In this document: one piece after another, positions 8,382-9,990 of the stretch
How the letters are laid out: each line of letters starts with the position of its first letter
Position numbering within the stretch: the stretch's first letter is position 1
Assembly: GCA_018263335.1 (NCBI GenBank)
Contig: JADFCY010000014.1
Coordinates: 1 to 48,043, forward strand
Origin: Methanolinea sp.
Lineage (GTDB): Archaea > Halobacteriota > Methanomicrobia > Methanomicrobiales > Methanospirillaceae
Length of the DNA stretch: 48,043 nt
Direction: 5' to 3'
The notes under the pieces: generated by a model
Databases searched by the model: none
The model's input: the letters and a program-made list of their open reading frames with translations, nothing else
Told to the model about the DNA's origin: nothing
Position numbers and translations under genes: made by a program

Positions 8382-8408
8382 AGTATATAGGGAAAAATGT
8401 CTATAAAG
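8382..8408. promoter_or_regulatory. Interleaved divergent promoters of PAN-2 and MBF1
   Basis: AGTATATAG (8382-8390) fits a plus-strand TATA box with RNA start near 8412. CTATAAAG (8401-8408), read as CTTTATAG on the minus strand, fits a PAN-2 start near 8378. The arrangement repeats that seen between PAN-1 and the dehydratase gene. Confidence 0.5.
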
Positions 8409-8423
8409 ATGTTTGCGACGAGT

Positions 8424-8915
8424 ATGCAGTGCGAATTGTGCGGAGGGAAGATTGTCGGCCCTTCAAAGACCGTCCGGGTGGAGGGAGCCGAGCTCGTGGT
8501 CTGCGCCAATTGCGCCCGGTACGGGACCGAGGTGCAGATGACTGCAAAGGCACAGCCGCGTGCCGGGACTGGCCCCCGCGCAGGGAGATCGGTCCCCGTC
8601 AGGCGCTCGAGGGACGTTTTTGACCTGATCGAGGGCGAAATTGTTGAAGATTACGGTGAACGCATCCGCGCTGCCCGGATGGAGAAGGGCCTCTCGCAGA
8701 AGGATCTTGCGATGCAGCTCAAGGAGAAGGAGCTGCTGATCAAGAAGATCGAGAAGGGAGACCTGATCCCCGAGGACGAGGTGCGGAGGAAACTTGAGAA
8801 GGCGCTTGGCATCAGGCTGATCGACTCTCCTGCAGATGATGAGGGGAAGCGTGGCGGAGGGACGGTTGTCCCGACCCTCGGGGACGTGATCTCGATCAAG
8901 AAGGTCCATAAATGA
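8424..8915 (+). CDS. Multiprotein bridging factor 1 homologue (zinc ribbon-HTH)
   Basis: Protein of 163 aa from ATG 8424. The N-terminal zinc ribbon has C-x2-C (MQCELCGGK) and C-x2-C (VVCANCARYG). After a basic linker comes a Cro-type HTH (YGERIRAARMEKGLSQKDLAMQLKEKELLIKKIEKGDL), as in archaeal MBF1. Archaeal MBF1 has been linked to ribosomes and translation rather than classic TBP bridging. An in-frame ATG at 8397 is rejected because it precedes the RNA start predicted from the TATA box at 8382-8390. A hairpin just after the stop precedes the aromatic-operon promoter. Confidence 0.93.
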   Translation: MQCELCGGKIVGPSKTVRVEGAELVVCANCARYGTEVQMTAKAQPRAGTGPRAGRSVPVRRSRDVFDLIEGEIVEDYGERIRAARMEKGLSQKDLAMQLKEKELLIKKIEKGDLIPEDEVRRKLEKALGIRLIDSPADDEGKRGGGTVVPTLGDVISIKKVHK

Positions 8916-8943: not shown

Positions 8944-8952
8944 TTTTATATA
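8944..8952 (+). promoter_or_regulatory. TATA box of the aromatic amino acid operon
   Basis: TTTTATATA, the best TATA element between MBF1 and the first operon gene. It predicts an RNA start at about 8973-8975 and so a leader of about 215 bases, far longer than the near-leaderless transcripts elsewhere in the window. Confidence 0.65.
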
Positions 8953-8977: not shown

Positions 8978-9025
8978 ATGCAAGGTGAGTGTTTTTTCGC
9001 CGGTGAGTGTTTTTATCTCGCTTAG
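8978..9025 (+). CDS. Possible leaderless upstream peptide ([15 protein letters not shown])
   Basis: The only ATG near the predicted RNA start (3-6 bases downstream) opens a 15-codon ORF ending in TAG. The peptide contains FF and FY within a repeated G-E-C-F-F/Y unit, encoded by the direct repeat GGTGAGTGTTTTT (8984-8996 and 9002-9014). It overlaps the longer aromatic leader ORF in another frame. It could be translated leaderlessly, or be a chance product of the T-runs. Kept as a candidate because it sits first on the transcript of an aromatic amino acid operon. Confidence 0.35.
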   Translation: MQGECFFAGECFYLA

Positions 9026-9137
9026 CCTGGCGCCTGCACCGTGCATCAACGAACCTGTCCTTCTGAACCATAAGCCAGTAGCTGCGGCACTTTCCCGCTA
9101 TCACCGCTATTTTGGTTATTTCTGGTATTTTTACTGA
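8985..9137 (+). CDS. Candidate aromatic leader peptide of the operon, ending [12 protein letters not shown]
   Basis: A 50-codon ORF from GTG 8985 (alternative GTG 9003) to TGA 9135-9137. Its last twelve codons (9099-9134) read TAT CAC CGC TAT TTT GGT, then TAT TTC TGG TAT TTT TAC: five Tyr, three Phe and one Trp. The stop is followed after one base by a hairpin over the SD of the first enzyme gene. Position, aromatic run and hairpin match a ribosome-sensing leader peptide. Weak points: the start is GTG with no clear SD and the tract is T-rich, which favours Phe and Tyr codons by chance. No database support was possible. Confidence 0.6.
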
Positions 9138-9138
9138 A

Positions 9139-9184
9139 ACTCCATCGGCCATTTCTCATACAAATGCGCTGGATGGATGGGAGT
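9139..9184 (+). promoter_or_regulatory. Hairpin predicted to bury the SD of the first aromatic gene
   Basis: ACTCCATC (9139-9146) pairs with GATGGGAGT (9176-9184, one bulged G), and inside it CATTT pairs with AAATG around a short loop. The 3' arm contains the GGGAG Shine-Dalgarno (9179-9183) of the gene starting at 9190. The 5' arm starts one base after the aromatic leader ORF stop, so a ribosome held on the last leader codons would cover it and leave the SD free. Confidence 0.5.
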
Positions 9185-9189
9185 GTTAC

Positions 9190-9990
9190 ATGAGAGGAAA
9201 AGAAATTCGCCTGGAACGCATCATGGACCGGAATACCGGCAAGACGATCATTGTCCCGATGGACCACGGGGTGAGCAACGGCCCTATCGAGGGCCTCATA
9301 GACCTGGGGAGAGCAGTCGACCTCGTGGCGACAGGGGGTGCCAACGCCGTCCTCGGACACGTCGGCCTGTCCCTGTACGGCCACCGGAAGAGCGGGAGGG
9401 ATGTGGGGCTGATCCTCCATCTCTCGGCAAGCACCTCGATCGGGCCTGACCCGAACGAGAAGGTACTGGTGAACTCGGTGACAAGCGCCCTGAAGATGGG
9501 GGCCGACGCCGTCTCTATCCACGTAAACATCGGGGCCGACTCTGAAGCGCGGATGCTCTCTGACCTCGGGCGGGTGGCAATCGACTGCATGGAGTGGGGG
9601 ATGCCGCTCCTCGCGATGATGTACCCGAGGGGAAGGAAGATCAAGGACGAGCACCAGGTCGAGCACGTCTGCCTTGCCGCAAGAGTGGCAGCGGAGCTTG
9701 GGGCTGACCTCGTCAAGACGGTCTATACCGGTGACCCTGACAGTTTCCGCCTGGTGACAAGGGGATGCCCTGTCCCGGTGGTGGTGGCAGGAGGCTCTAA
9801 AACAAGCGACCTTGCCACCCTGGAGTTAATTGAGGGGGCGATGGAAGGGGGTGCCGCCGGGATCTCAATCGGGCGGAACGCCTTCCAGCACCCTGCACCG
9901 GACCGCTTTGTCAGGGCCGCGGCAGAGATCGTCCACCGGGGGTGCTCGGCGGAAGAAGCACTGGAGATTGTGAAGGAGAAGAGAAGATGA
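9190..9990 (+). CDS. 2-amino-3,7-dideoxy-D-threo-hept-6-ulosonate synthase (ADH synthase)
   Basis: Protein of 266 aa from ATG 9190, with GGGAG seven bases upstream. It is a class I aldolase of the archaeal AroA'/MJ0400 family, which condenses 6-deoxy-5-ketofructose 1-phosphate with aspartate semialdehyde in the DAHP-independent route to 3-dehydroquinate. The [18 protein letters not shown] block is very like MJ0400. Catalytic Asp/His (MDHG), Tyr (MMYPRG) and Schiff-base Lys (LVKTVYTGD) are present, as is the phosphate-binding GRNAFQH. First enzyme gene of the operon; ATGA overlap with the next. An upstream in-frame extension was rejected because it lacks family residues. Confidence 0.92.

Follow-up and report, generated by a model that had tools for sequence, protein, structure and literature searches.

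A conserved aromatic-rich leader of the aromatic amino acid operon in Methanomicrobiales, a likely ribosome-mediated attenuator on a predicted leaderless archaeal mRNA

The leader of the aromatic amino acid operon of Methanolinea sp. is likely a ribosome-mediated attenuator in an archaeon, carried by a predicted leaderless transcript and probably entered by a +1 frameshift. It lies in a contig stretch of 48,043 nt that was analysed as a whole (hereafter the window), and it has the appearance of a sensor of starvation, of a type unreported from Archaea. An earlier note on this DNA had proposed attenuation, a reading which is supported here; ribosome stalling, the sensing of tRNA charging and the control of expression are what we infer from the sequences. 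Comparison of homologous leaders establishes the leader ORF with its aromatic run, reading frame and stop codon, as well as the hairpin, the spacing of ATG and TATA box, the constant +1 offset and the existence of fused variants.

In the window, the leader lies between an aMBF1 gene and the first of two genes for 2-amino-3,7-dideoxy-D-threo-hept-6-ulosonate (ADH) synthase (ADHS), whose ATG is at 9190. The features are as follows.

8397-8915: aMBF1 gene, upstream neighbour of the leader
8945..8952, + strand: TATA box TTTATATA, starting 33 nt 5' of the ATG at 8978; predicted leaderless transcript
8978..9025, + strand: ORF1, a leaderless, ATG-started short ORF (frame A), of a type found in 119/144 leaders
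8985-9137, + strand: frame B, the open frame with the aromatic run, 50 aa, as delimited in the earlier note with a GTG start at 8985
8993..8999, + strand: candidate shifty site 1, TTT TTC G (YTT TTY); third T of YTT kept in 102/102 distinct sequences
9011..9017, + strand: candidate shifty site 2, TTT TAT C (YTT TAY C); third T of YTT kept in 102/102, the next C in 98/102
9023..9025, + strand: frame-A stop of ORF1, TAG; in nearly all split leaders this stop lies 1-5 codons past the Tyr codon
9099..9134, + strand: aromatic run, the last twelve codons, conserved across Methanomicrobiales
9135..9137, + strand: leader stop TGA; in homologues the stop likewise lies directly 3' of the run
9141..9177, + strand: hairpin of the minimum-energy fold, starting 6 nt from the first base of the stop and ending beside the ADHS Shine-Dalgarno sequence
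9179..9183, + strand: Shine-Dalgarno sequence of ADHS, GGGAG, from the sequence
9190..9990, + strand: ADH synthase, operon gene 1 (TIGR01949, E=5.6e-102)

The operon continues with a second ADHS gene, 3-dehydroquinate synthase II, prephenate dehydrogenase, prephenate dehydratase, aroA, aroK-aroE and aroC, whose products lead to Phe, Tyr and the precursor of Trp. The genes and the TATA box are as described, and the aromatic amino acid operon that had been claimed behind the leader was found. Since this operon makes the very amino acids that would be sensed, its identity was counted in favour of an attenuator. Rfam covariance models gave no leader, riboswitch or T-box in the window leader, only two sub-threshold snoRNA matches, both on the opposite strand.

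The last twelve codons before the stop of the ORF at 8985-9137 comprise five Tyr, three Phe and one Trp, in agreement with the earlier count. No other 12-codon stretch in the six frames of the 48 kb is as aromatic, the runner-up before a stop having 6/12, and among 20,000 dinucleotide shuffles of the leader (8978-9189) none placed 9/12 aromatic codons before a stop and two placed 8/12. The GTG start proposed at 8985 is doubtful; a leaderless start at the ATG of 8978 is preferred, 33 nt from the start of the TATA box and in a different frame. The aromatic frame is therefore probably reached by a +1 shift.

Searches for ADHS provided 144 distinct upstream regions from six families of Methanomicrobiales. 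A common layout of TATA box, ATG 29-34 nt further on, open frame, aromatic run and stop is present in all but one of them, the exception (L066) being a leader cut by a contig end whose start cannot be judged, and in nearly all of these leaders a hairpin lies within 8 nt of the leader stop. The earlier note had proposed to look in relatives for a missing run or frame-breaking indels. This comparison was made and the leaders passed it: run, frame and stop persist in the 144 distinct leaders, with the hairpin after the stop, while sequence and length drift; the sequences diverge widely and the layout stays constant. The stop that ends the run is usually 35-80 nt 5' of ADHS. Examples of runs, each followed by the stop, are GAAAFYRYFTRF in Methanoculleus, FSFYQFFWY in Methanospirillum, FGFFSFYYRFYYWY in a Methanoregula type and FFFRYFYLF in a Methanofollis type. 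Two leaders (L120 and L121) were considered as losses of the run and rejected as such, their run lying further upstream and ending in FWFRQ before the stop. This ending, followed by a hairpin of the CTGCACC...GGTGCAG type far from the ADHS start, is shared by L120, L121 and L130-L133, which belong to two families, and may reflect transfer or a different, perhaps transcriptional, read-out.

The composition of the runs is specific to aromatic residues. The last 14 codons of 127 distinct runs hold 483 Phe, 398 Tyr and 70 Trp versus 92 Leu, Val and Ile together (951 versus 92), which argues against mere T-richness, and in 107 of the 127 the in-frame aromatic count exceeds that of best-of-three-frames shuffles of the same run at p<=0.05. 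Counted from the stop, aromatic frequency peaks at codons -4/-5, with Trp nearly restricted to codons -2 to -5, beside the hairpin. Codon usage in the runs (TTT 351/TTC 132, TAT 339/TAC 59; TTT 73%, TAT 85%) is the reverse of that in the ADHS genes (57/294 and 47/256; TTC 84%, TAC 84%). The open frame is roughly 40-100 codons long in every genome, and its residues between ORF1 and the run are conserved in neither sequence nor length.

In the 119 split leaders, the ATG lies at about 30 nt from the TATA box and out of the aromatic frame, the TATA 8-mer starting at -29 to -34 from the ORF1 ATG in 117 of them and likewise in most fused leaders (see below). ORF1 has 14-26 codons of the pattern M[QRC].[EG]C...[FL]F[AT].[ED].[FL]Y..stop (short form M.GECFFA.ECFY..stop) and is built of 18-nt repeat units, two in number or three in Methanoregula types. 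As a global regulon signal this motif was rejected, occurring only before ADHS besides scattered hits with 2-3 mismatches. The unit GGTGARTGYTTTTTCGCC is repeated two or three times in the window (8978-9017) and in homologues; its GGTGA resembles a Shine-Dalgarno sequence and creates a TGA in the -1 frame just past site 1, and its wobble T, kept in 99/102, creates a GTG in the last unit.

ORF1 holds two candidate sites for a frame change. A P-site YUU with U as the next base is a classical +1 slippery codon. At site 1, a P-site UUU could slip +1 while the Phe codon UUC is empty, and site 2, with a Tyr codon in the A site, would be the preferred site of the +1 shift. The C after TAY is demanded by neither coding frame, being a wobble base in frame B and starting a Leu, His, Arg or Pro codon in frame A. 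Between the ORF1 stop and the run stop of 118 leaders, frame B has no stop in 4,393 codons, as opposed to 183 stops in frame A and 145 in frame C. Substitutions within ORF1 do not tell frames A and B apart (synonymous/nonsynonymous 4014/5714 and 2684/3395). Features of programmed +1 frameshifting are found together: the aromatic frame is +1 relative to ORF1 in 119/119, YTT TAY C is conserved, and some relatives are fused by an indel at the site. Two marks of leader-peptide attenuation are present as well, with a conserved Phe/Tyr/Trp run before ADHS in the 144 leaders and an adjacent hairpin structure. Every split leader also has an ATG or GTG of frame B at +4, +7 or +25, almost always without a Shine-Dalgarno sequence, and because of this possible start codon we call the system frameshift-like rather than proven programmed frameshifting.

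About 24 leaders have the ATG at the same distance from the TATA box and in frame with the run. These fused leaders come from several families and include two Methanospirillum types, L139/L140, L142, L124, L130-L133, L120, L121, L155 and L156; the Phe/Tyr shift units are missing from all of them. Leader L140 begins ATG CGT GGT GAA TGC CTT TCC GCT CCC GGT TGC CTT ATC, and the corresponding part of the split leader L027 reads ...TGC CTT TTC GCC CCT GGT TGC CTT TAT CGC. Relative to L027, one T is deleted in L140 exactly at site 2 (YTT^TAY), so that frame A is joined to frame B, and its site 1 has decayed; L139 likewise has one T fewer at site 2. Such a pattern is what would be expected if ORF1 and the run form one translational unit via a +1 shift in most lineages. 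The fused leaders are natural controls, which makes the idea directly testable.

The structural evidence concerns the segment between the leader stop and the ADHS start, to which the claims are restricted since the single-sequence fold of the whole window leader is not unusual (z = 0.33). In 120/123 intergenic regions, the first base of the stop and the beginning of the main hairpin are 0-8 nt apart, and 88/123 have a hairpin with at least 7 pairs that extends into the Shine-Dalgarno zone, versus 766/2460 shuffles (31%); the mean minimum free energy of the segment is -15.7 versus -11.9 kcal/mol in shuffles. The Shine-Dalgarno core is at least half paired in 82/128, and the hairpin of most genera extends up to or into this sequence and has no U tract after it. 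The arms differ completely among genera (CCCGGA/TCCGGG, CTCAGCAG/CTGCTGAG, GATCACTC/GAGTGATC). Two-sided covariation is weak, at 1/11 pairs in one aligned group of Methanoregula-type spacers, in which the stem was recovered. For the window, a hairpin beside the stop and over the next Shine-Dalgarno sequence had been described; the adjacency to the stop stands and the covering does not, as the hairpin abuts GGGAG. An alternative ACUCC-GGGAGU pairing, read by eye, would possibly cover it. In L119, L122, L123 and L130-L133 the hairpin is far from the ADHS start, and the read-out may therefore be different there. The control codons lie beside the 5' arm of the hairpin, a geometry that, in single folds, fits switching by a stalled ribosome.

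We propose that the transcript starts at, or a few bases from, the ATG at 8978 and would be translated immediately. In the lineage of the window, as in about five sixths of all leaders, translation would begin in frame A, and the ribosome would meet YUU UUY and then YUU UAY C and terminate early unless it slips by +1. Slipped ribosomes would enter frame B and reach the Tyr/Phe/Trp run right before the stop, where a ribosome delayed in the final codons would abut or overlie the hairpin's 5' arm and keep the ADHS ribosome-binding site open; to touch the hairpin, a ribosome should have to stall within about the last three codons. With the binding site kept open, aromatic starvation would raise translation of the operon. 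When aromatic amino acids are plentiful, exit at the ORF1 stop or quick run-off would let the hairpin shut the site. The direction of this response to aromatic supply is one we infer. A ribosomal +1 shift probably accounts for the frame change, and control probably acts on translation and not on transcription, translational control being the best reading for most lineages. Starvation may drive the +1 shift, a point on which we stand just short of evenly divided. A bolder form, in which hungry-codon +1 frameshifting is the sensor itself, is put forward tentatively: scarcity of Phe- or Tyr-tRNA at YUU UUY and YUU UAY C would make ribosomes slip out of a dead-end ORF into the frame with the run, where they would be held beside the hairpin, so that a leaderless mRNA would carry a starvation switch of two steps.

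The main rival is attenuation without frameshift, in which translation of frame B begins directly at a GTG or ATG close to the 5' end (position 8985 in the window), with ORF1 as a decoy or as another leader that overlaps it. All 119 split leaders do offer such a start at +4, +7 or +25 from the ATG, the T making the GTG of the last unit is kept in 99/102, and in E. coli overlapping frames can be opened from AUG and GUG starts that lie next to each other (PMC9841429). However, these starts are almost devoid of Shine-Dalgarno sequences and lie away from the predicted 5' end, the first of them being 25 nt in for 25 leaders, and direct initiation leaves unexplained the near-invariant C after TAY, the frame-A peptide, and the fused leaders with their ATG at the ORF1 position and their lost Phe/Tyr units. 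With Shine-Dalgarno sequences scarce, the position wrong and both ORF1 and the fusions unaccounted for, we judge it rather unlikely. The same sensor could also act on transcription, the U-rich run being exposed without ribosomes to termination by aCPSF1/FttA or at a U tract before ADHS and protected by frame-B ribosomes. The U-richness and reversed codon bias of the run agree with this, as do the distant hairpins of L119, L122, L123 and L130-L133 and the factor-dependent termination that FttA mediates in archaea (PMC11616081), but in most genera the hairpin reaches or overlaps the Shine-Dalgarno sequence without a U tract behind it, and such a site of action appears unlikely.

Two other explanations would dispense with attenuation. 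The tract is T-rich and the 18-nt units of ORF1 can be read as a repeated binding motif, so the run could be a mere T-rich DNA or RNA element, such as an operator or a U-rich processing site, with its frame incidental; the freedom from stops in frame B alone (0/4393), the excess of aromatic over Leu, Ile and Val codons (951 versus 92), the 107/127 runs that beat their shuffles at p<=0.05 and the invariable ending of the run at a stop make this extremely improbable. A functional small protein, acting for example on ADHS or at the membrane, would suit a frame that stays open for roughly 40-100 codons in each genome, but the residues between ORF1 and the run are unconserved in sequence and length, conservation is limited to aromatic composition and to placement with respect to stop and hairpin, and the codon bias is reversed; we regard it as very unlikely.

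Outside Methanomicrobiales, 20 ADHS upstream regions from 20 sampled genomes of other Halobacteriota contained no such ORF. A palindrome-like block, GTGYTACTATGTSACAYASTARCAY, is conserved there 3' of the TATA box and before ADHS (L221-L223, L228-L230, L232, L234, L235, L237), and is probably a transcription-factor operator; Methanomicrobiales seem to have the leader ORF in place of this block. The trp operon was checked for a Trp run and none was found. At the trpE loci (L239-L260; L250 in the genome of the window), trpE begins in most genomes with a conserved AGGTGATGCCGGTGGA[AC]TGG block that forms a mini-ORF, MP[VL][DE]W..., with a Trp codon that overlaps the apparent start of trpE. In some families this start is ATG; in Methanolinea and Methanoculleus it is CTG, and there several TrpE frames lack any ATG, GTG or TTG for 30 or more codons. 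A TRP-box-like TGTACA is present near the TATA box of these loci.

Aromatic amino acid genes in Archaea are known to be controlled by the DNA-binding transcription factors TrpY in Methanothermobacter and Tar in Thermococcus (PMC6737238), which share the target class with the present leaders and differ from them by acting without leader translation. The earlier note had called archaeal cases very little documented; no archaeal leader-peptide attenuator was found in open-access full texts, and a paper of 2021 states that no transcription attenuation or antitermination was known in archaea (PMC8448881). Few archaeal frameshift cases are listed, with the +1 case inferred in a halovirus (PMC8211752, PMC5009743), and a review of 2016 knew of no functional use of hungry-codon frameshifting (PMC5009743). 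A frame change driven by starvation would, if true, be a first natural use of it. Were an attenuator fixed throughout an order of methanogens, ribosome-based sensing of amino acids would be shown to have arisen in Archaea as well, on leaderless mRNAs.

The archaeal leaders resemble the bacterial trpL and pheL in having a short leader ORF full of end-product codons, with an adjoining mRNA hairpin, before a biosynthetic operon. Unlike trpL and pheL, they have a leaderless start, a run entered from another frame, a hairpin at the Shine-Dalgarno sequence and, in most lineages, no terminator of hairpin plus U-run. Programmed +1 sites are CUU UGA C in bacterial prfB and CUU AGG C in yeast Ty1. The likeness to these lies in a P-site YUU that would re-pair one base on, a slow A-site codon and then C (here YUU UAY C), whereas the slow codon is here Tyr (or Phe), the spaced internal Shine-Dalgarno sequence of prfB is lacking, and the site is a candidate known from sequence. 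The LEU element of actinobacterial leuA also has a leader peptide with end-product codons, and the Shine-Dalgarno box of its biosynthetic gene is structured, but there the Leu codon run itself pairs with that box, the frame does not change, and the system is bacterial (PMC1262725). Frameshifting in the E. coli pheL is regarded as incidental (PMC5009743). In the ermC leader (ermCL), a frameshift induced by the ketolide telithromycin opens ermC, as ribosomes pass the leader stop and unfold the spacer mRNA (PMC5009743). Frameshifted ribosomes opening the next start site are the point of likeness, while ermCL is bacterial, has no aromatic run and is triggered by an antibiotic instead of amino acid scarcity. 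By analogy, the leader described here would work like a leader-peptide attenuator with an ermC-like entry by frameshift.
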